Of a stretch of 64,000 nt of DNA, positions 5,598 to 64,000 are shown piece by piece. The notes below the pieces were generated by a model. The model did no database searches. It was not told where the DNA came from and saw only the letters and a program-made list of their open reading frames with translations. Each line of letters opens with the position of its first letter. Position 1 is the first letter of the stretch. A program made the position numbers and the translations under genes. The stretch comes from Marinobacterium lutimaris (GTDB taxonomy: Bacteria; Pseudomonadota; Gammaproteobacteria; Pseudomonadales; Balneatricaceae): assembly GCF_900108065.1 (NCBI RefSeq), contig NZ_FNVQ01000001.1, positions 2,046,001 through 2,110,000 of the forward strand, written 5' to 3'.

Positions 5598-6029
5598 TCA
5601 ATGGCCGCAGGTAGATGATTCGCTGCCGGTTACCACCGGAATACCGATACCGGGGTTTCGACGCGGCTCCGCCACTAAAAGGCGTTCTATCTCGTCGATA
5701 TATTCATCCCAGTTACGCACCTTGGAGATCGCACCGAGGTAACGCCCCTGTTTCAGAAACACCAGGGTCGGCCAGGCGTTAAAGCCGTAACGCCCCTGCA
5801 GGCTGCGCTCATCTTTCGCGGCGATCACCGCAGGAGAGAGCTGCGGGAAGCGTTTAACCAGTTCCGGCAGGATCACCGCCACATCCAGGCTTTCAGAAAA
5901 GCGGTTCGGATCCTCGGCGAAAAACAGCACGCTGAACGCCTGCTCGCGGGTATGGGAATCGACGCTGTCTGCGTCCAGGCTCGGGTAGCCATAGCGGCTG
6001 TTCAGCTGTTCAAGCAGGGGATGAGTCAT
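5598..6029 (-). CDS. hupG: HupG/HyaE, thioredoxin-like hydrogenase chaperone
   Basis: 143 residues with a thioredoxin fold but no CxxC active site, as in HyaE. FFAEDP (about 36-41) and the cis-Pro loop NAWPTLVFLKQGRYLG (about 94-109) mark the fold. HyaE/HupG binds the Tat signal or precursor of the hydrogenase small subunit. The start lies 2 bases after the hupF stop. The extreme C-terminus (SSTCGH) contains a Cys-Gly-His that could bind metal, though nothing else supports this. Confidence 0.88.
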   Translation of the reverse strand: MTHPLLEQLNSRYGYPSLDADSVDSHTREQAFSVLFFAEDPNRFSESLDVAVILPELVKRFPQLSPAVIAAKDERSLQGRYGFNAWPTLVFLKQGRYLGAISKVRNWDEYIDEIERLLVAEPRRNPGIGIPVVTGSESSTCGH

Positions 6030-6031
6030 GG

Positions 6032-6355
6032 TTAGTTCTCTATCGGTTTATGTACAGCGCCACGAAGGTGTTCAGGCAATTGCGGCTCTCGATCTACAAG
6101 GTCGGCAAATAGCCGGTCTATTGCGGCAACATCGCCTCTAGCGCTGGCGTGCAACGCCTCGAGGGCACTGGAGACTTGAGTCGCGCGTTCTGCAGTCATG
6201 ACATCCCGAGCGGCGCCGGCGAAAACCATTAACCAGTCACCCTGATTAAACGGACCGACCAGACGGGTATCCACCCAGGTCTGCTCGCCACGACCGGAGC
6301 ACAGCGCCCGACCTGATTCGATTTCCAGCACCTGCATCGGCACTCCGATACACAT
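6032..6355 (-). CDS. hupF: HupF, HypC-family hydrogenase maturation chaperone
   Basis: 107 residues starting MCIGVPMQV. The N-terminal Cys2 is the invariant residue of HypC proteins that binds the iron intermediate and the large-subunit precursor. It is longer than HypC, with a C-terminal helical extension, which is typical of HupF, the paralogue that protects HupL under oxygen. The order hupD-hupF with a TGACATG junction fits the Rhizobium/Rhodobacter arrangement. Confidence 0.9.
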   Translation of the reverse strand: MCIGVPMQVLEIESGRALCSGRGEQTWVDTRLVGPFNQGDWLMVFAGAARDVMTAERATQVSSALEALHASARGDVAAIDRLFADLVDREPQLPEHLRGAVHKPIEN

Positions 6356-6356
6356 G

Positions 6357-6995
6357 TCAGGATTCCTCGTTCAGATCGATGGCAGGATTAAGAAAACGGG
6401 CATCGCCGGTGCGGCACGCCTGATCGGAAGCGGGACGGCCCTGCTCATAGGCCTGCAGCGCCAGTTGTCCCGGTGAGAGTTCCTCGGCCGCCAGGCCGGT
6501 TTCGCTGCGCGACTCAGCCACTACCCCGCGCTCGGCAAGAAAGTTAAGCGCAATCTCCAGCGCCTCATCGATACGGTCGCGTACGACCGGGGTCAGGCTG
6601 CCGCCGAAATCTTCCAGAAGCTCCGGCTGCACGCCGATCAGCAACAGCTCCGACGGATAGCTGCCGGTGAACTCAGCCATCGCCAGTACTTCCTGAAAAC
6701 CGGTCTGATGCAGGCTCATCTGTTTGGCACCCATAAACTTGGGCACCTCCTCATCACGCACAATCCTCAGCGTTCCCGGCTTCAGGCCGTAATCCACCGC
6801 ATCAAACACCAGCAGCCGGCTGGCATTCTGGACATGCTGTACGAGGTAAATGCCCTGGGTGCCACCGTCGAGCAGCTTCACCTGCTCAGGAAACCGGTAA
6901 CGCTGGTTCAGCGTTTCGACACATCGCACCCCGAAGCCCTCATCGGCCCAGAGCACATTGCCTATACCCAGTATCAGTGTTGTATCGCCTGTCAT
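6357..6995 (-). CDS. hupD: HupD, hydrogenase maturation endopeptidase
   Basis: 212 residues. It starts with the HyaD/HybD signature ILGIGNVLWADEGFGVRCVE (Glu of DEGFG is the nickel ligand), followed by LLDGGTQG and VFDAVDYG (Asp ligand) and MSLHQTGFQEVL (His ligand). The enzyme cuts the C-terminal tail of HupL after nickel insertion. The C-terminus extends about 40 residues past the core family. It is the first gene of the operon; its GGGATGA ribosome site sits just before ATG 6995. Confidence 0.95.
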   Translation of the reverse strand: MTGDTTLILGIGNVLWADEGFGVRCVETLNQRYRFPEQVKLLDGGTQGIYLVQHVQNASRLLVFDAVDYGLKPGTLRIVRDEEVPKFMGAKQMSLHQTGFQEVLAMAEFTGSYPSELLLIGVQPELLEDFGGSLTPVVRDRIDEALEIALNFLAERGVVAESRSETGLAAEELSPGQLALQAYEQGRPASDQACRTGDARFLNPAIDLNEES

Positions 6996-55169: not shown

Positions 55170-57224
55170 TTACAGGTCCACCGCGGCCACGCAAAGGCGT
55201 CGGAACTGCTCTTCGTCGATGGGCCAGATGCACCATTCGGCATAGCCCCGCCAGCGCAGGTAATCTTCCACCTCTGTATTGTGAGCGGAAAGCACCATGA
55301 TCACGGGCAACCCGCACCAGGACATATGGGTGCGCAGCTGTTTGAGGTAGTTCACCGGGTCCCGGGCCACATCCACATAGACGATCAAGCCGAACACCAA
55401 TGCGTCCCGACGCAGAATCTCTGCCCCCTCTTCACCCGAATAGACGCGAATCAGCGGCCGGTCTATCAGCGAGCCGATCCGGCTGGAGACCTCATCATCG
55501 GCGCCAAACAGCATCAACCCCGGCTGTTTGCGCTGGAACACATTGTCACTGACAGAGCCCAGGGCATCACTGGTCACGGTAGGGTCGATCACTTTCCAGA
55601 AGCTGGCACCAAGTACCCGCGTCACCTCATCCACGGTAGTTAATCCAGAGGTGATTTCGTGCCAGGCCACGGTGGCCAGGCTGCGCTCAAGTTCCACGTC
55701 AGCAGAACGCAGATAGTTTTCGGTCCGCAGCAGACGTCGATCCTCATCACTAGGCGTGTAGACTTCGACCAGCGGTATGCGGCCTTTATAGCCGGTGTGA
55801 TTGCAGGCGTTGCAACCCACTGCTCTGAACGTTGGCTTCTCCTGAACCGCGTTGGCGAACAGAGTTTCTATCGGTGTCAGATCATCCTCAACCCGCACCG
55901 CACAAACCGGACAGACCCGTCGCACCATTCTCTGCGCCACAACAGCCGTGAGGCTGTCTGCTATCTGTCCCTGAGTCACGCCCAGGTCTACGAGTCGCTG
56001 CACGGTCCCAAGGGCATCGATCGTGTGCAGGGTCGAGAAAACCAGATGGCCGGTCATCACGGCACGCATCACCATGCTGGCAGTGGGTTCATCACGCACC
56101 TCACCGACCAGAATGACGTCAGGGTCCTGCCGCAGCATTGACCGCAGTACGGTGTCGAAGCTGCGACCATGAGCCGTATCGACCTCAATCTGGCTGATAC
56201 CTGGCAGGCTGTACTCGACCGGATCCTCCGCGGTCATTATGTTACGTTCCGGCGTGTTGATACCGGCAAGCAGGCTGTAAAGACTGGTGGTTTTACCCGC
56301 CCCGGTCGGGCCGGTAAACAGAATCAGGCCCTGGTTCTGGCGGCTTAAAAGTTCCAGCTGACGCTGCTCGCGCAACGGAAAGCCGAGACTGTCGGAGGAA
56401 AACTTGCGGTTTTTATCCAACAGGCGCAGCACCAACCGGCTATCGTCACGGCTGGGCAGTACAGAAACCCTGAGGTCGTAAAGCTGGTCGTCGACACTTG
56501 CGCTGAGGCGTCCATCCTGAGGTGTCGTATGGTTGGACGTATCCAGGCCCGACTGCGTCATCACATAACGCAGTACTGCGTCCTTTACCTTTTTAGGCAG
56601 GCTTGAGCCACGCACCATCAGACCGTCCACCCGATAGCGGATGAGTCCACCGCCAAGAAAATTCTGGATATGAACATCACTGGCGCGCATCTTGACGGCC
56701 TCGTTCAGTATCATCTTGGCAATCTGGCTGATCAGTTGATCAGTGTCCGCACTGACCTCCAGATCCTCATTGTCGATCCACAGATGGCGGGTTCCCAGAC
56801 TATCAAAAGCGGAATAGTGCAGGTTGAGTACATTGGCTATCTGCTCCGGCGGCGCAAACGCAAGCTCCGTCTTACGGCCGATGCTGAAAGCGATCTCCTG
56901 CTTTATGGTCTGATCAAAAGGGTTGCTGACCGCCGCAACCACCTGGTGCTCACCGATCTCCGCCAGCACCGCATGCAGCCGCCGCGCCGTCGATTCCGGT
57001 AACGGTATATCCTTGGTGGAGATCACCTGCTCGTTCAGATCCACCACCGGCACACCGCTGCTTTCCAGCAATTCGACCAGTTCGCTGCCCGGACGCGCCA
57101 GGGTTCGGCAGATGACGCTCCAAGCCTGTACCTGATCATCCGGCAGCTCCAGTGACTTGAGAGCCTCCGCTTTTTCCGGAACCGCCTTACCCAGGGTTAC
57201 CAACATCCAGTCCAGTGCAGACAT
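55170..57224 (-). CDS. GspE/PilB-type ATPase with a C-terminal receiver-like domain
   Basis: 684 residues. An N-terminal GspE-N-like region, then the secretion ATPase: Walker A TGPTGAGKTTSLYSL, Asp box EDPVEY, Walker B PDVILVGEVRDEPTA, His box GHLVFSTLHT. The zinc tetracysteine is CPVC and CNAC. The last 120 residues (GLMLFGADDEVSSRIGSL, then LIVYVDVARDPVN and VIMVLSAHNTE) form a receiver-like fold with degenerate acidic residues, an unusual fusion. It follows a pilin and a membrane protein gene. Confidence 0.92.
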   Translation of the reverse strand: MSALDWMLVTLGKAVPEKAEALKSLELPDDQVQAWSVICRTLARPGSELVELLESSGVPVVDLNEQVISTKDIPLPESTARRLHAVLAEIGEHQVVAAVSNPFDQTIKQEIAFSIGRKTELAFAPPEQIANVLNLHYSAFDSLGTRHLWIDNEDLEVSADTDQLISQIAKMILNEAVKMRASDVHIQNFLGGGLIRYRVDGLMVRGSSLPKKVKDAVLRYVMTQSGLDTSNHTTPQDGRLSASVDDQLYDLRVSVLPSRDDSRLVLRLLDKNRKFSSDSLGFPLREQRQLELLSRQNQGLILFTGPTGAGKTTSLYSLLAGINTPERNIMTAEDPVEYSLPGISQIEVDTAHGRSFDTVLRSMLRQDPDVILVGEVRDEPTASMVMRAVMTGHLVFSTLHTIDALGTVQRLVDLGVTQGQIADSLTAVVAQRMVRRVCPVCAVRVEDDLTPIETLFANAVQEKPTFRAVGCNACNHTGYKGRIPLVEVYTPSDEDRRLLRTENYLRSADVELERSLATVAWHEITSGLTTVDEVTRVLGASFWKVIDPTVTSDALGSVSDNVFQRKQPGLMLFGADDEVSSRIGSLIDRPLIRVYSGEEGAEILRRDALVFGLIVYVDVARDPVNYLKQLRTHMSWCGLPVIMVLSAHNTEVEDYLRWRGYAEWCIWPIDEEQFRRLCVAAVDL

Positions 57225-57682: not shown

Positions 57683-58591
57683 TCAGCGCGGATACCAAAC
57701 ACCGTTAATAATTTCGTCGGGATGTGGACACATGGAGTAGTGACCCGAGTTGTAATAGTGCAGGTTGCCCTTATTGGTGTAGCAGGCCGCCGGTATCTGA
57801 GCAGGCGGTCTTGGCGTAGTGACAACAGACGTCGACTGCCCCGCAGGATTAGGGTTCTGCGAGTTACTGTTACTTCCCTGCTGCTGTTGCTGCTGAATGA
57901 CGGCAGCAGTCTGCGTTTGAGAGCCAGCATTACCTGCGGACGCAGTTTGAGTTGAAGTAGGTAACGGCTGAGGCTGAGGCTGGGGAGTCGCCTGAGGAGT
58001 CGCCTGCGGCTGCAGCTGCGGCTTTTGCTGCGGCGCCAGCTGAGGTTGCGCCTGGGGCTTGAGCGTGGGTTGAGGGTTCGGTTGCGGATGGGCCGCGACC
58101 TGCTGAGGTCCGGTACTTGTCTGATGCACGTGCAGAAGCGCCGTTGGATCAATCAGATAAACCGCCAGATACGCGCCCGGCCGAAAGGTATAAACCAGGT
58201 TATCAGGTAACTTGTAATGCGCTTCATCGACAATATGAGTGCCACGCTCATCGATGGGATAAAAAACCGCCACCGGATAGCCATTGGCATCCGACTTCAC
58301 CAATGACTGGAAATGCGGCACCAATAGATTGCCGGAATTCATTTTTAAAGGATCTGGCCACTTGTTGGATGGCGGTGGAGTCTGCAACTGATCGGGCCAG
58401 CCCGCAGTAGCGTTTTGCTCTGCACTCATCAGGCGTAGTGCATCGATATTGGTCAGCAGTTGAGATGCCTGTGCGGCGTAGATGTAATGCCGGTAGGCAG
58501 GGAGCGCGATAGCCGCCAGAATTCCGACTATGGCCAGGGAGATCATTACTTCAATCAGCGTAAAACCCGCCGATCCTATTCTTCTTTTCAT
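57683..58591 (-). CDS. Type IV pilin-like protein with Pro/Gln-rich middle
   Basis: 302 residues from ATG 58591; a GTG two codons earlier is less likely. Prepilin signal GFTLIEVMISLAIVGILAAIALPAY: cleavage between G and F, with Glu5 of the mature protein. The globular part (to about 165) is followed by a Pro/Gln/Ala-rich stretch (about 165-250) with a run of six Gln, and a C-terminal cysteine pair (AACYTNKG, YSMCPHPD), probably a disulphide loop. Much longer than a usual minor pilin. Confidence 0.85.
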   Translation of the reverse strand: MKRRIGSAGFTLIEVMISLAIVGILAAIALPAYRHYIYAAQASQLLTNIDALRLMSAEQNATAGWPDQLQTPPPSNKWPDPLKMNSGNLLVPHFQSLVKSDANGYPVAVFYPIDERGTHIVDEAHYKLPDNLVYTFRPGAYLAVYLIDPTALLHVHQTSTGPQQVAAHPQPNPQPTLKPQAQPQLAPQQKPQLQPQATPQATPQPQPQPLPTSTQTASAGNAGSQTQTAAVIQQQQQQGSNSNSQNPNPAGQSTSVVTTPRPPAQIPAACYTNKGNLHYYNSGHYSMCPHPDEIINGVWYPR

Positions 58592-58880
58592 CAGCACAGC
58601 GTCCAGAGGCAGATGTTATATATACGTCGAATGGGTCTGAAACAGATCTGGTTAAAACCTAATCACTAAACAGTATTGCAGCAAGTACTAAATCATTCAT
58701 TTCGCATATATTTTGCTTAAGCCTGATCTGGCTCCAGAATTGAATGCCCCTTCACCGGCGCCCGGTAAAAGCCTTTTAAATCAACTTTCCGAAAAAGCAT
58801 CCATTGGCCGTTTCATGCTGCAACATGCTGCCGCTATGTGCTTGCGCAGCCTCCCGGCTGACGGTACTCTGCCCCGCAAT

Positions 58881-59070
58881 TGCAGGTGCCCCGCTGCCAT
58901 TCCAGCGCGGTGGGGATAATCGGGAAGTCAGGTGAAACTCCTGCGCTGCCCCCGCAACGGTAACGAAAGCCAAGCGCCTCATCACCGCCACTGCAGCCTT
59001 TACGCTGTGGGAAGGCCTAACGCGCCGTCTATCCAAAGACACTTTCCAAGCCCGGAGACCGGCCTGCCAG
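58881..59070 (+). promoter_or_regulatory. Cobalamin (AdoCbl) riboswitch
   Basis: The B12-box elements occur in order: GCAGGTGCC (58882), GGGATAATCGGGAAGTCAGG, then CTCCTGCGCTGCCCCCGCAA and CGGTAAC, GCCACTG, GTGGGAAGGC, and finally CCCGGAGACCGGCCTGCC (59053-59070). This is a complete class I cobalamin riboswitch about 180 bases before the CobN-like start, so the operon should be repressed by B12. The remaining 58592-58880 holds no site I can name. Confidence 0.95.
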
Positions 59071-59249
59071 ATGACCGCCCATAGCGGTTATCTCCATGCG
59101 CATCAGGCGGGGTGTCCCTGAAACAGCATCAGTATCCGCGCCCCGGAAGACCCTTGCGTCTACCGCAGCGGAGAACCTGTATCTGTTCCAAGTTCCGACG
59201 GTTAATTCCAGTACTTGCCGGTGCGTGTAGATCTTATTCAGGAGTCTGC

Positions 59250-62200
59250 ATGCGCAATCGTTCATCTCTCTCAGCTGTTCCAGCCCTCACTATCTGGCTG
59301 ACAGCGCTGTTCTGCCTGCTCGCCAGTGCGATGTTCGGCCAGGTTCAGGCCGCCACGCACAGCGCCGTGGCGATCGTCTCAGACCGCTCAGCCCCGGTGA
59401 TGGCGGCCGGCGCCTACCGCTTTCTGGAGGATCATCCGGATGCGAGTATCCAGATCCGCAGCGTCGCCCAGGTAAACGAGATGGACGATGCCGCGCTGGA
59501 AGCGCTGATCTCACCGGCGGCAACGCTGATCTATGCCGGCGTTTTCGGCGCGCCGGTTGAGCGCCTGCTGGCTCTGCCTGTCCAAAGCGACCAGCAGCGG
59601 CTGGTGTTTCACAGCGACCGACGTCTCTATGACCTGCACAACGATGCCGAAGGTGGCCGCTTCACCGGGCTAGATGCAGAGACCAAAGAGAAGCTGTTCA
59701 GCCGCCCGCCGACGGATCAGCCCTTCCCTGCCTGGCTGGCGCAGCAGAAACAGGCACTGCCGCACTTTAACCACTGGCTCGACGCGCGCAGCTACTGGCA
59801 GAACCGCAACGCCGGCAATATCCACGCTCTCTGGCAACTGCTGCTGGACCCGACCGCTGAACCAGCCGCCGCCCAGGTGAATGCGCCAGTACGTGCCTAT
59901 CTCGATACCAGGCCGGTCAAACTGAATGAGCTGGCGGCGGCGATGGAAGATCGCGACACCCTGTTCGTGCTCGACCACCAGAGCGGCGATCTGCCCGGCA
60001 ACTGGAGCCTGCACCGCAAACTGTGCAGCCAGAGCGAGCTGCAGTGTGTGACGCTGCTGGCAGCCTGGGGCGCCGGCAGCGAAGAGGCCATCGAGCAGAT
60101 CCAGGCGCTTGCGCCCAAACAATCTGCCTGGACGATCCTGTCGGTGCAGGACTTCGTTATCGGTGGCGGCGAAGGTCGCGAAGCGGTCAGCGCCAGGCTC
60201 AATGAACTCAACGTGCCTGTGTTCAAGGGTATCCGAGTCGATGAATACAACGCCGACAGCTACGCGTTTTCCGCCAACGGCCTGCCCGCCGACTCCGTAT
60301 ATTATCGCGTCGCGATGCCGGAGCTGCAGGGAATCGGCCAGCCAGAAGTATTGGCACTCTCCACCCCAGCCAAAGTTGACGAGGTGACCGGCGCGCGCCT
60401 GATTCTTTCACAGCCCATCGACAAGGCGGTTGAACGTATTATTGGCCGCATCCAGCGCTGGCTGGCGCTGCAGCGCAAAGAGAATGCCGATAAGCGTGTC
60501 GCTATCGTCTATTACAACCATCCGCCGGGACGCCACAATATCGGCGCCGACAACCTCAATGTGCCCGAATCTCTGTGGCAGATTCTCAACGCCCTGAAAG
60601 ATCAGGGCTACGATACGGGTAACCTGCCGCAGTCGTCCGAAGCGCTGCTGGACCTACTGCAGGAGCGCGGCGTCAACCTGCCCGAGGACCGTCAGGCGCT
60701 GGAGCAGATGGCGCCGCTGGTCAAAGGCGTAAGCAGCGAGGATTACCGCCAGTGGTTTTCCACCCTGCCAGAGACGGTACAACAGGAGATGGTGCGCGGC
60801 CCCCTGGGTTACCTGCACACCCGGCTGAAGCCGCTGCTATCGAGCAACCGCGCCCAGCCTATCGACCCCGGTGTACACCAGGAGATGGCCACACTGATCC
60901 AGCGCAGCCTGGGCGATCTGCGCCACGCCCTCGACGGCGTGCGTGACCAGCGCCGCAGCCGCGCCCTGGATCTGCTCGATCAGCTCAAAGACAGCTACAC
61001 GGTTCTGCTTGGCGACGATCTTGCCGACGAGCAGCGCATTAACCAATGGCAAAACGCCGGCGAACTGGTCTCGGCGCTGGTTCATATGGGCATCGAGGGG
61101 ATGCGCGGCTGGGGCGAGGCACCGGGGCGCAGCATGATCTGGCAGGACCGCATGCTGCTGCCGGGTCTGCAGTTCGGCAACATCTTTGTCGGCCCGCAGC
61201 CGCCGCGCGGCTGGGAGCTCAACGAAGAGCTGCTGCACGCCAATATGACCTTCCCACCGCCGCACCAGTACCTGGGCTTTTACCACTATCTGCGCGACGA
61301 CTTTAAGGCCGATGCGCTGATCCACCTGGGCCGCCACTCCACCTACGAATTTCTGCCCAGGCGCAGTGTCGGCCTCGGCGAGGATGATTACCCATCCCTG
61401 GTGCTCGGCGACCTGCCCAGCATCTACCCCTATATCGTCGACGGCGTTGGCGAGGGTATTCAGGCCAAGCGTCGCGGCAAGGCGGTGATCATCGATCACC
61501 TGACGCCACCACTGGCGGTGACCGAGTTGTACGACGACCTGCTCAGCGTACGTCAGCTGATCGAAAGTGCCGAAGCCGCCAGCGATCCGGTTACCCGCCG
61601 CCGTGCGGTAGAGGACCTGCGCGAGCGGATCGATAGCCTCGGGCTGCGTGAAGAACTGATCGCCAGCATGGATGAAGAACTCAAGGTACGCGGTATCGGC
61701 TTCGATCAGGTCGACGACGAGTTCCTGCTGCATGAGGTCGGCCACTATCTGACCAAGCTGCAGGAGGCGTTCATGCCGCTGGGGCTGCACACCTTCGGTC
61801 GCCAGTGGGAGCCAGACGCCATCGACACCATGCTCTCCTCCATGGCGGACAGCGACAACATCAAACCCCAGTGGCGCGATAACCTGACCCGGTCGCCACA
61901 GCTGGAAATGGATGCGCTGATCAACGCCCTCAACGGTGGTTTTGTAGCGCCGGGCAAGGGTAACGATCCGATCAAGACCCCAGAAGCACTGCCCACCGGG
62001 CGTAACTTTCACGCTCTGGACGGCAGTCTGCTGCCGACGCCGCTGGGCTTCAAGCTCGGTGCCGAGCTTGCTGCCGATGCGCGCAGCAAGCCGATGACCG
62101 AGGCGGAACGGCTCAAGAAGGAAGCAGTCATCCTCTGGGCCTCCGACGCGGTGCGTGATGAAGGCGCGATGATCGGCTTCGGTTTCGATATGCTCGGCGT

Positions 62201-63662
62201 CACCCCGGTCTGGAACAGCCGCGGCATCATCAAGGGGCTGACACTGATCCCGCTGGATCAAAGCCGCCCGCGCCGTCACGATGTGCTGTTTACCACCTCG
62301 GGGCTTTTCCGCGATCTTTACGGGCGCCAGCTTAAGTGGCTCGATGAGGCAGTCCTGCTGAGTCTCGCGGCCAGCGAAGAGACCATTCGTCGCGACTACC
62401 CGGCACTGGACATCGCACTGACCGGCGCCCTGGCCCCTCTGGCTGAATACACAGCCGGCAATGAAACCCTGGAACAAAACCTGATCGCCGCCAACTGGGT
62501 TGAAGAAGCACGGCTGCTGCTGAGAAACCCAACGGCCAGCGCCTCCGAACTGGGCCGCCAGGCATCGCTGCGGGTATTCGGATCGGCACCCGGCGCATAC
62601 GGCGCGGGTGTGAACCGTCTGGTGGAGCGCTCCGGCAGCTGGCAGCAGCGTCAGGAACTGGGCCAGGCCTATATCGCCCGCCTCGGCCACGCCTATGGCA
62701 TGAGCCTGGACGGACTCAGCGCCCAGGATCACTTCAGCAACCAGCTCAGCCAGGTAGGCCGCAGCTATCTCGGTCGCGCCAGTCACCTGTACGGTCTGAT
62801 CGATAACAACGATGCCTTCGACTACCTCGGTGGCCTGAACCTTGCGGTGGAAACCGTCACCGGCGCCCCGCCCACCAGCTACGTGATTCAACATGCCGAC
62901 GCGGATAACGCCCGTCTCGACCCACTGGCCCAGGCGCTGGGTAGCGAGCTGCGCGGTCGCTTCCTCAACCCTCAGTGGATCAAACCGCTGATGGACGAGG
63001 GTTACTCAGGCGCCCGTACCATGGGGAGCGAATTTATCGAGTACCTCTGGGGCTGGCAGGTAACCAGCCCGGAGATCATCCAGTCCCGTGTCTGGGATGA
63101 GGTGAAGGCTGTCTACCTTGATGACCGGTTTGAACTGGGCCTTGACGAGTTTCTGCGCGAGGGGCACAACCAGCAGGTGCTGACCAATATCCAGGCAGTG
63201 ATGCTGGTGGCGGCAGAAAAAGGGTTCTGGCAGACCGATGAGGAAACTCTGAACCAGCTCTCCCGCGACTTTGCCCGCTCGATTATCGAGCAGGGTATTC
63301 CCGGCAGTGGCCACACCCACCCCGACCACCCGGTGTACCAGTTCGTCATGCCAAGGCTGGATACCAACAGCGCTCAAGCACTACAGCAGTTGCTGTCCAA
63401 CAACCGCATGCCCGACGTGGATTCTGAGTCACCCCTGGATAACCAGCCAAGCCATATTCAGGAGATCAGCCTTCAGGATCAGCAGGCTTCCGAGCCGGAC
63501 AGCGCTGACGCCGAGGCTGCGGCTGCGGCTGCGGATAGCAACGACACCACCCAGGCTCAGGCCCAGCCCAGCAACACCCTTGAGCTATCGGTGCTGATCG
63601 CCCTGGCGCTGTTGATCATGTTTGCCGGCCTGCTTCGTGGCCGCATGGGAGGAAAACGCTGA
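59250..63662 (+). CDS. cobN: Secreted, membrane-anchored CobN-like cobaltochelatase homologue
   Basis: 1470 residues from ATG 59250 (AGGAG site); the frame is open 46 codons further but that would run into the leader. Signal peptide 1-34 (cut near VQA), CobN/Mg-chelatase-H domain through most of the length (LSPNIYPYIVDG-like region reads LGDLPSIYPYIVDGVGEG, then QAKRRGKAVIIDHLTPPL), Ala/Asp-rich linker (about 1405-1440) and a C-terminal helix. The canonical HGTxEWLPGK site is HSTYEFLPRR. Location points to periplasmic corrinoid or metal handling, not cytosolic B12 synthesis. Confidence 0.9.
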   Translation: MRNRSSLSAVPALTIWLTALFCLLASAMFGQVQAATHSAVAIVSDRSAPVMAAGAYRFLEDHPDASIQIRSVAQVNEMDDAALEALISPAATLIYAGVFGAPVERLLALPVQSDQQRLVFHSDRRLYDLHNDAEGGRFTGLDAETKEKLFSRPPTDQPFPAWLAQQKQALPHFNHWLDARSYWQNRNAGNIHALWQLLLDPTAEPAAAQVNAPVRAYLDTRPVKLNELAAAMEDRDTLFVLDHQSGDLPGNWSLHRKLCSQSELQCVTLLAAWGAGSEEAIEQIQALAPKQSAWTILSVQDFVIGGGEGREAVSARLNELNVPVFKGIRVDEYNADSYAFSANGLPADSVYYRVAMPELQGIGQPEVLALSTPAKVDEVTGARLILSQPIDKAVERIIGRIQRWLALQRKENADKRVAIVYYNHPPGRHNIGADNLNVPESLWQILNALKDQGYDTGNLPQSSEALLDLLQERGVNLPEDRQALEQMAPLVKGVSSEDYRQWFSTLPETVQQEMVRGPLGYLHTRLKPLLSSNRAQPIDPGVHQEMATLIQRSLGDLRHALDGVRDQRRSRALDLLDQLKDSYTVLLGDDLADEQRINQWQNAGELVSALVHMGIEGMRGWGEAPGRSMIWQDRMLLPGLQFGNIFVGPQPPRGWELNEELLHANMTFPPPHQYLGFYHYLRDDFKADALIHLGRHSTYEFLPRRSVGLGEDDYPSLVLGDLPSIYPYIVDGVGEGIQAKRRGKAVIIDHLTPPLAVTELYDDLLSVRQLIESAEAASDPVTRRRAVEDLRERIDSLGLREELIASMDEELKVRGIGFDQVDDEFLLHEVGHYLTKLQEAFMPLGLHTFGRQWEPDAIDTMLSSMADSDNIKPQWRDNLTRSPQLEMDALINALNGGFVAPGKGNDPIKTPEALPTGRNFHALDGSLLPTPLGFKLGAELAADARSKPMTEAERLKKEAVILWASDAVRDEGAMIGFGFDMLGVTPVWNSRGIIKGLTLIPLDQSRPRRHDVLFTTSGLFRDLYGRQLKWLDEAVLLSLAASEETIRRDYPALDIALTGALAPLAEYTAGNETLEQNLIAANWVEEARLLLRNPTASASELGRQASLRVFGSAPGAYGAGVNRLVERSGSWQQRQELGQAYIARLGHAYGMSLDGLSAQDHFSNQLSQVGRSYLGRASHLYGLIDNNDAFDYLGGLNLAVETVTGAPPTSYVIQHADADNARLDPLAQALGSELRGRFLNPQWIKPLMDEGYSGARTMGSEFIEYLWGWQVTSPEIIQSRVWDEVKAVYLDDRFELGLDEFLREGHNQQVLTNIQAVMLVAAEKGFWQTDEETLNQLSRDFARSIIEQGIPGSGHTHPDHPVYQFVMPRLDTNSAQALQQLLSNNRMPDVDSESPLDNQPSHIQEISLQDQQASEPDSADAEAAAAAADSNDTTQAQAQPSNTLELSVLIALALLIMFAGLLRGRMGGKR

Positions 63663-64000
63663 TGCTTTCATCTTTCTCACTCAACCTGATGCACCAGATC
63701 ACCAGCCTGCTGCTGGAGCCGGTGGTCTGGGGCCTGGTTTTCCTGCTGCTGCTGAGCATCTGGGAGATCGGCCTCGCCTTTGGCGAGCGCTGGGGCGGTT
63801 TGCAACGCCTGCTGCACGGTGGCGATATGAGCACGGCCCTGGCGCAGGGCCGCCGCCGGATCGAACGGGCGGACTTCATCACCCGCCTGTCGCCGATGCT
63901 GGGCCTGATGGGAACGCTGATCCCGCTCGGCCCCGGCCTTGCGGCTCTCGGTGATGGCGAACTGTCGGTGCTGACCACGGCGATGACAGTGGCCTTCGAT
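63662..64000 (+). CDS. MotA/TolQ/ExbB-family proton channel protein (partial)
   Basis: The first 113 codons are visible; the gene continues past the edge. It starts at ATG 63662 overlapping the CobN-like stop as TGATG. One transmembrane helix about 20-38, a cytoplasmic loop, then TRLSPMLGLMGTLIPLGPGL, the second-helix pattern of ExbB/TolQ proteins. With the CobN-like protein it may form an energised envelope complex. CobN-like genes next to ExbB-like and DUF2149 genes are a known arrangement, and the next gene may be DUF2149. Confidence 0.85.
   Translation, partial: MLSSFSLNLMHQITSLLLEPVVWGLVFLLLLSIWEIGLAFGERWGGLQRLLHGGDMSTALAQGRRRIERADFITRLSPMLGLMGTLIPLGPGLAALGDGELSVLTTAMTVAFD

Follow-up and report, generated by a model that had tools for sequence, protein, structure and literature searches.

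The window analyzed here, a stretch of 64,000 nucleotides of Marinobacterium lutimaris (contig NZ_FNVQ01000001.1, positions 2,046,001 to 2,110,000, forward strand), carries at its end a unit led by a cobalamin riboswitch. Its first gene, btuS, codes a protein that, by its sequence, is a CobN relative of the BtuS type and is neither CobN nor HmuS. It is followed by the genes of an ExbB/TolQ-like protein and, beyond the window, of a DUF2149 protein. We see an even chance that this unit codes a proton-driven processor of corrinoids that would act in the periplasm during vitamin B12 salvage. The unit has the following elements (L and G numbers identify the loci and genomes of our comparisons):

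58867..59081, + strand: cobalamin riboswitch aptamer (RF00174; cmscan 98.3 bits, E 2.6e-23, complete model 1-189).
59221..59255, + strand: hairpin over the btuS ribosome-binding site and start codon, candidate expression platform (minimum-free-energy fold).
59250..63662, + strand: btuS-type gene of the CobN family, 1470 residues (Pfam PF02514, 807.6 bits).
59250..59351, + strand: putative N-terminal export signal, residues 1-34, a hydrophobic stretch with the end VQA-A, read by eye.
61329..61364, + strand: metal-site loop GRHSTYEFLPRR, residues 694-705, in which His696 corresponds to HmuS His538 (alignment with HmuS).
62811..62813, + strand: Asp1188, at the position of HmuS His1209 and Asp in CobN too (89 of 89 rows; alignments).
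63450..63473, + strand: tail motif SHIQEISL, residues 1401-1408, roughly [ST]-hydrophobic-x-E-[IVL] (by eye).
63585..63638, + strand: C-terminal membrane helix, about residues 1446-1463 (mean hydropathy 2.58 over 19 residues).
63662..64000, + strand, running on to about 64141 outside the window (L002:1663-2142): ExbB/TolQ-like gene (PF01618).
Beyond the window, L002:2142-2435: DUF2149 gene (PF09919, 38 bits), directly after the ExbB-like gene with an ATGA overlap.

The most likely start of btuS is the ATG at 59250, which has AGGAG just upstream; an alternative, longer frame begins with GTG at 59112. A profile built from 11 BtuS sequences was compared with solved structures and scored best with HmuS (9d26, 507 bits), followed by CobN (463 bits) and ChlH (452 bits). 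In a tree of 38 proteins the 21 BtuS sequences form one clade (Shimodaira-Hasegawa-like approximate likelihood ratio test 100) that is separate from HmuS, CobN, BchH and a second DUF2149-linked type of CobN-like protein; this is a quick tree with flagged long branches and a possible false CobN-BchH join, and its deeper order is unsure. The link to HmuS drawn in the original prediction thus holds as kinship, HmuS being the best solved relative, and fails as identity, the host protein having Asp1188 for His1209 and a clade of its own. Of its named relatives, that of Marinobacterium mangrovicola is the closest, with 96 per cent in the best-matching segment.

The papers cited below by PMC number were available in part, and what is said of them refers to those parts. 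According to PMC6460266, BtuS was proposed in 2003 (Rodionov et al.) as a third CobN type for metalloporphyrin salvage. The traits that define this type, taken second-hand from PMC6460266, are all found in the host protein: relation to CobN, separation from CobN and ChlH, a link to B12 and export, as judged by sequence. The BtuS proteins of B. fragilis, two of which were tested in heme-iron use (PMC6460266), are likewise CobN-related, distinct from CobN and ChlH and predicted to be exported and membrane-attached; they were studied for the use of heme iron, whereas the clade described here has a cobalamin riboswitch and an active-site signature of its own. According to PMC12583661, reliable annotation is out of reach for the majority of the remaining superfamily sequences from bacteria and archaea.

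That the protein is an ordinary cytosolic CobN, inserting cobalt together with CobS and CobT, is extremely improbable. PF02514 and the NCBIfam CobN models do match it, but the cut-offs of the latter are all missed (TIGR02257, for example, gives 520.6 against 822), the start is signal-like, the end is an anchor and the host is devoid of CbiC. CobN of the CobNST system shares with BtuS the family and the Asp at the second ligand position; it differs in having no C-terminal helix, AAA+ partners, a HGxxEWLPGK loop and a role in de novo synthesis. The host genome has one CobN-family match. A cobS/cobT pair and full synthesis genes in the same unit had been named beforehand as evidence against an exported machine; neither cobS/cobT-like genes nor a TonB receptor were recognized among the genes following host btuS, and CbiC, a marker of corrin-ring synthesis, is absent from the host genome. 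The CobT-type marker PF06213 gave no match in the host, nor in any of 13 genomes searched with it, two CobN-bearing controls among them, and is uninformative.

The substrate of BtuS is very probably a corrinoid. Neither the loop GRHSTxEFxP nor the pair H696/D1188 varies in 89 aligned rows, with G694, R695, H696, S697, T698, E700, F701 and P703 each conserved in 89 of 89; four of the rows are repeats, the btuS of L085, L099, L146 and L149 being present in genomes of the order set as well. The loop had been predicted to be a changed HGTxEWLPGK site. It is changed, and its EF-x-P-R part is not unique to BtuS, being also found in HmuS (HGSLEFTPRK); R-H-S-T is what distinguishes BtuS from the other aligned rows. 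Two motifs of HmuS do not occur as written: in place of HFG(T/A)HG the host protein has HLGRHS, and in place of LSLDHxxEFMGG with His1209 it reads LIDNNDAFDYLGG with Asp1188. Of the heme-site residues of HmuS, His254 is matched with E308 in one alignment and lies close to a gap in a second, and Met79 is unaligned. The position of HmuS His1209 is aligned with His in HmuS and BchH and with Asp in BtuS and CobN. The substrates of HmuS and BchH are porphyrins and that of CobN is a corrin, so that Asp1188 fits a corrin substrate, this match being a correlation across few families.

The HmuS/HmuTUV system (9d26, PMC12583661) resembles the host unit in its family, its membrane-bound chelatase, its ExbB-like HmuU, its DUF2149 protein HmuV and the correspondence of His538 to His696. 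It differs in the second ligand, in the LSLDHxxEFMGG motif and in a predicted anchor that is N-terminal in HmuS and C-terminal in the host protein; in the host, moreover, no gene lies between btuS and exbB and control is by B12 and not by iron. HmuV is stated to resemble no known family (PMC13227078). By analogy with HmuS, BtuS could remove cobalt, either to harvest the metal or to degrade unusable corrinoids. HmuS is its closest solved relative by score and is a reported heme de-chelatase (PMC12583661), and growth on heme iron is poor in the btuS1 btuS2 double mutant of B. fragilis (PMC6460266). That mutant still freed porphyrin from heme, however, and de-chelation by BtuS was doubted even there (PMC6460266). 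The replacement of the second HmuS His by Asp and a riboswitch control that implies expression at B12 shortage also speak against cobalt removal, and in some related units the receptor gene is accompanied by one of transporter type (DUF2162 in L068, clearly over the cut-off; NicO-like in L069, below it), as opposed to an ExbB gene that starts within 158 nt of btuS. We regard it as improbable. The original prediction had left metal insertion, metal removal and assistance to uptake side by side. B12 control, export by sequence and the ExbB-like partner stand, and removal becomes the weaker option because the riboswitch implies expression under B12 shortage and because salvage genes accompany some loci (28 of 80).

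Both ends of BtuS suggest a periplasmic protein held in the inner membrane. The export signal was called by eye; hydrophobic amino termini are found in most relatives, while three of the 21 BtuS frames inspected start too early to show one. At the other end a low-complexity tail precedes the C-terminal helix. This architecture had been anticipated, as had the fusion to the next gene: the btuS stop overlaps the following start as TGATG (63660-63664). The ExbB-like gene scores 40 bits with PF01618 as a whole (cut-off 22.9) and 19.4, below the cut-off, for the part inside the window. The reading on beyond position 64000 that had been proposed yields the expected DUF2149 gene directly afterwards; the TonB receptor is not found in the unit and btuB lies behind a second riboswitch.

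In 84,980 scanned species genomes, 292 stretches were found to encode relatives, and the best 80 of these were used for the locus counts given here. Judged from their titles, most are gammaproteobacterial, joined by some from Campylobacterota, Nitrospirota and Nitrospinota, one betaproteobacterial bin and one bin of Myxococcota. An exbB-like and a DUF2149 gene both follow btuS in 78 of the 80, and in the other two the contigs end there; ExbB starts at most 158 nt from btuS in all 81 scored loci. The C-terminal hydropathy threshold of 1.4 is passed by 76 of 80 named BtuS. The four below it are broken or short frames (L108, L120) or weakly hydrophobic (L116, L131); L133 is a split btuS frame. 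In 11 additional BtuS loci, the best-scoring ones of the class search, ExbB is found in all, DUF2149 in 10 and a helix above 1.4 in 10 (L175 has 1.37). A C-terminal helix is also present in 12 of 12 other DUF2149-linked CobN-like proteins, compared with none of two CobN and none of two BchH.

The DUF2149 protein has one membrane helix in its model (residues 19-42). Helix residue 26 is acidic in 101 of 101 aligned rows (96 different), being Asp in 100 and Glu in one. An acidic residue in the membrane helix is a feature of ExbD, TolR and MotB. The ExbB/ExbD, TolQ/TolR and MotA/MotB pairs are thus similar in combining an ExbB-like subunit with a single-helix partner that has a conserved acidic residue; the pair described here differs from them in that DUF2149 has no detectable ExbD domain and that the driven part is seemingly the chelatase. 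Coupling of this putative motor to BtuS through the C-terminal helix is probable. Stretches resembling SHIQEISL were seen by eye in the 15 tails inspected and not at the ends of two tail-less proteins, and SHIQEISL is a possible docking strand for DUF2149.

The motor genes might instead energize a TonB-dependent receptor, which is the published view for HmuU and HmuV of the hmu operon, where the two proteins power the receptor (PMC12583661). Receptor-like genes are neighbors in most loci of the second DUF2149-linked type. The host unit, however, consists of motor genes without a receptor, and a Marinobacter branch keeps btuB while having neither the motor nor the BtuS C-terminal helix. This branch comprises the only two BtuS that clearly have no such helix, namely L067 (a Marinobacter plasmid) and its close relative L046 (genome G093). 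No exbB or DUF2149 gene occurs in the stretches examined of either, btuB being kept in the cluster and, in L046, immediately preceding btuS. A search of the complete G093 genome with the DUF2149 profile found nothing, while the profile detects the proteins of G102 and of the host, and the BtuS-type ExbB query gave only two weak matches (26 and 22 bits, compared with 164 for the host gene). Joint loss of helix and motor with retention of btuB hints that the motor serves the chelatase and not the receptor; because the loss concerns one clade and a single event, it is a pointer only. We consider a receptor motor unlikely.

The link of the unit to B12 begins with its riboswitch. The complete cobalamin riboswitch claimed ahead of the unit is confirmed, the RF00174 match being full length and far above the gathering score of 31.5 in the window. 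No terminator-like site was found in 58500-59400. The leader hairpin would fit control at the level of translation on the basis of a single sequence: the fold covers 59040-59262, with z -2.54 for the whole stretch and an optimum that is rare in the ensemble. Because the unit is under riboswitch control, its expression is expected when B12 is short. The host genome has two cobalamin riboswitches, the second one leading a btuB-containing run of salvage genes. Beside eight of the 10 other full-length btuS orthologs of the host's order a riboswitch is found at gathering score; the remaining two have a riboswitch core about 2.1 kb upstream that precedes a btuB-like gene. The 18-base riboswitch core lies within 800 nt upstream of btuS in 50 of the 80 named loci and farther upstream in 16 (background 25 in 1600 random windows from the same loci, real riboswitches left in). 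Note that L014 has two cobalamin riboswitches on opposite strands (6006-6560), one directed toward btuS and the other toward a btuB-like gene.

Full-length BtuS is found in 11 of 145 genomes of the host's order, the host included. CbiC is present in 34 of the 145 and in two of the 11, so that BtuS occurs mostly, and not exclusively, in genomes devoid of CbiC. The host itself looks like a salvager that makes no corrin ring de novo: because late genes are present and CbiC is absent, it would finish cobalamin from cobyrinic acid on. Its late genes follow the second riboswitch:

About 331900-343700 of contig C14, genome G000 (L036/L168): second riboswitch gene run, from btuB to cobalamin synthase.

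This run codes BtuB, a BtuM-like protein, CobO, CbiA, BluB, CbiB, threonine-phosphate decarboxylase (CobD), cobyric acid synthase (CobQ), cobinamide kinase (CobP/U), dimethylbenzimidazole phosphoribosyltransferase, an alpha-ribazole-phosphatase-like protein and cobalamin synthase (CobS). All enzyme names are above curated cut-off except the phosphatase (150 of 163); BtuB scores 629 bits with TIGR01779 (cut-off 599.7). The BtuM-like gene (L036:5874-6446) is named from its match to Protein Data Bank entry 8c7p ('Cobalamin ABC transporter'; 128 bits, E 2.8e-36, Cys aligned), no curated cut-off being passed. BtuM has an invariant Cys (PMC6072759). A FecCD-type ATP-binding cassette (ABC) transporter about 12 kb downstream was considered as BtuCDF and dropped, being below every listed vitamin B12 cut-off.

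A rival reading dispenses with metal chemistry: BtuS would be a large periplasmic corrinoid-binding protein, driven by ExbB/DUF2149, that hands cobalamin over from BtuB to BtuM or BtuCDF. It agrees with the B12 control of the unit and with the presence of BtuB and a BtuM-like gene in the host. A BtuB-like gene lies at most 23 nt before btuS in L044, L046, L135, L144, L148 and L149 (L044 and L149 being from the same genome), and in seven Colwellia-type loci a BtuM-like gene is followed by a cbiA-like gene and then directly by btuS. Yet BtuS occurs both in loci with BtuM-like genes and in loci with BtuC/BtuD-like genes, which excludes a simple replacement of a binding protein, and the invariance of chelatase loop and Asp seems beyond the needs of mere binding. 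We rate hand-over as doubtful, although it is the main rival, cobalt removal being less likely. Another arrangement is found on the Marinobacter plasmid, with the order TonB receptor, binding protein, permease, ATPase, cbiA, btuS, cobO, cobyric acid synthase and bluB. Its cbiA-btuS-cobO segment mirrors the CobB-CobN-CobO order of the aerobic pathway.

In the reading that we prefer, the products of btuS, exbB and the DUF2149 gene would form an inner-membrane machine that faces the periplasm. Exported BtuS would bind a corrinoid there with its CobN/HmuS-type body, while its C-terminal helix would sit with a proton motor of the ExbB-like protein and DUF2149, the latter as a minimal ExbD-like subunit. 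Proton flow would move or open BtuS, replacing the role that ATP-driven CobS/T or ChlI/D have for cytosolic chelatases. The unit, made under B12 shortage, would cooperate in salvage with BtuB, BtuM or BtuCDF, CbiA and CobO. Both the energized action and the reaction (insertion, exchange, ligand removal or hand-over) are inferred. Metal insertion or exchange is our first choice of reaction, tentative as it is. Four features lead to it: an Asp as in CobN, a control repressed by B12, the nearness of cbiA and cobO at some loci and a triad that includes no transporter-like gene. Scavenged corrinoids that are metal-free or wrongly loaded would receive their metal, then be imported and amidated by CbiA.

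A number of observations weigh against this processor. Among the 12 proteins of the second DUF2149-linked type the position of Asp1188 is divided, some members having Asp and some His. A Foldseek comparison of the BtuS head model (residues 36-420, predicted local distance difference test (pLDDT) 91) with the Protein Data Bank gave no match at E 0.001 or better, and HmuS, CobN and ChlH are absent among the best 50 of 1248 rows. DUF2149 has no match to PF02472 (ExbD) at E 1, a model that gives 91 bits for the protein annotated as ExbD in L068; the structural model of DUF2149 is poor (mean pLDDT 69, predicted template modelling score 0.32), the outer part having only short strands (82-85, 92-95). 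Class locus L178 has the helix and ExbB, DUF2149 not being found. The riboswitch core is missing in 14 of the 80 loci, seven of which have less than 2 kb of upstream DNA. Another salvage gene is present in the examined flanks of only 28 of the 80, a BtuB-like gene above 200 bits in only 13, and the BtuS genomes G023 and G123 carry CbiC and CbiD. CbiA is cytosolic, and the parallel in gene order is no proof of a common substrate. Metal-free corrinoids are considered scarce in nature.

Beyond the host unit, BtuS, HmuS and zinc-linked relatives may belong to one class of periplasmic tetrapyrrole chelatases driven by a proton motor, in which an ExbB-like protein and DUF2149 as minimal ExbD replace the AAA+ ATPase. 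In BtuS and the types closest to it, the C-terminal helix of the chelatase itself would provide the coupling, and the BtuS branch would insert or exchange metal in scavenged corrinoids. This is a speculative proposal that we hold rather improbable in its entirety. If it were true, B12 auxotrophs could use corrinoids hitherto considered useless, a periplasmic step would be added to B12 salvage in many bacteria and DUF2149 would be a proton-motor subunit. It raises the testable question of whether a proton motor can stand in for the ATP motor of chelatases. In the accessible parts of the open-licence literature we found no tested function for the riboswitch-controlled BtuS branch, named more than 20 years ago (PMC6460266), no description of a riboswitch-controlled BtuS with ExbB and DUF2149 and no proposal of a proton-driven chelatase.

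The zinc-linked relatives are exemplified by PA1922-PA1925 of Pseudomonas aeruginosa, which likewise group CobN-like, ExbD/ExbB-annotated and DUF2149 genes; they differ in their induction by zinc depletion, a predicted Zur site and a TonB receptor (PMC4542158, PMC9431628). In our set, the second CobN-like type (L151-L160, L070, L163) has a signal-like start, a C-terminal helix and ExbB-like and DUF2149 genes, mostly beside a TonB receptor-like gene. In L156 and L155, Zur-like palindromes with 4-5 mismatches precede the receptor frame by about 25 and 160 nt, and in L157 the distance is some 600 nt; none was found in the remaining second-type loci scanned (background 10 at up to 5 mismatches in 893 kb of L071-L119). 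L151 (G134) and L155 (G137), both of the host's order, code CobN-like proteins with the HmuS motif SLDHVYEFMGG and have an extra frame between the chelatase and ExbB genes with no Pfam family above cut-off.

Two further plasmids carry related modules. In Runella slithyformis (L069, 3104-11138) hyp genes surround a set that codes a TonB receptor, a protein weakly similar to NicO (below cut-off) and ExbB-like, DUF2149 and CobN-like proteins, an arrangement which hints that such a module may also serve nickel. In Trichlorobacter lovleyi (L068, 7393-18802) a plasmid that has corrinoid genes carries CobN-like, ExbB-like, DUF2149 and DUF2162 genes next to two receptors and a distinct exbB-exbD-tonB set.

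Downstream of the host unit lie the following, dropped as members of it since they stand beside btuS in one and three of 80 loci, respectively:

L002:2537-5018, about 64536-67017, outside the window: gene for a 459-residue lipoprotein-like protein (no family match above cut-off) and folE2.

Just upstream of the riboswitch, at 57683-58597 (- strand), is a gene named by eye as coding a prepilin-like protein with a long proline-/glutamine-rich stretch, and near it, at 55170-57224 (- strand), a pilus-type ATPase gene, also named by eye.

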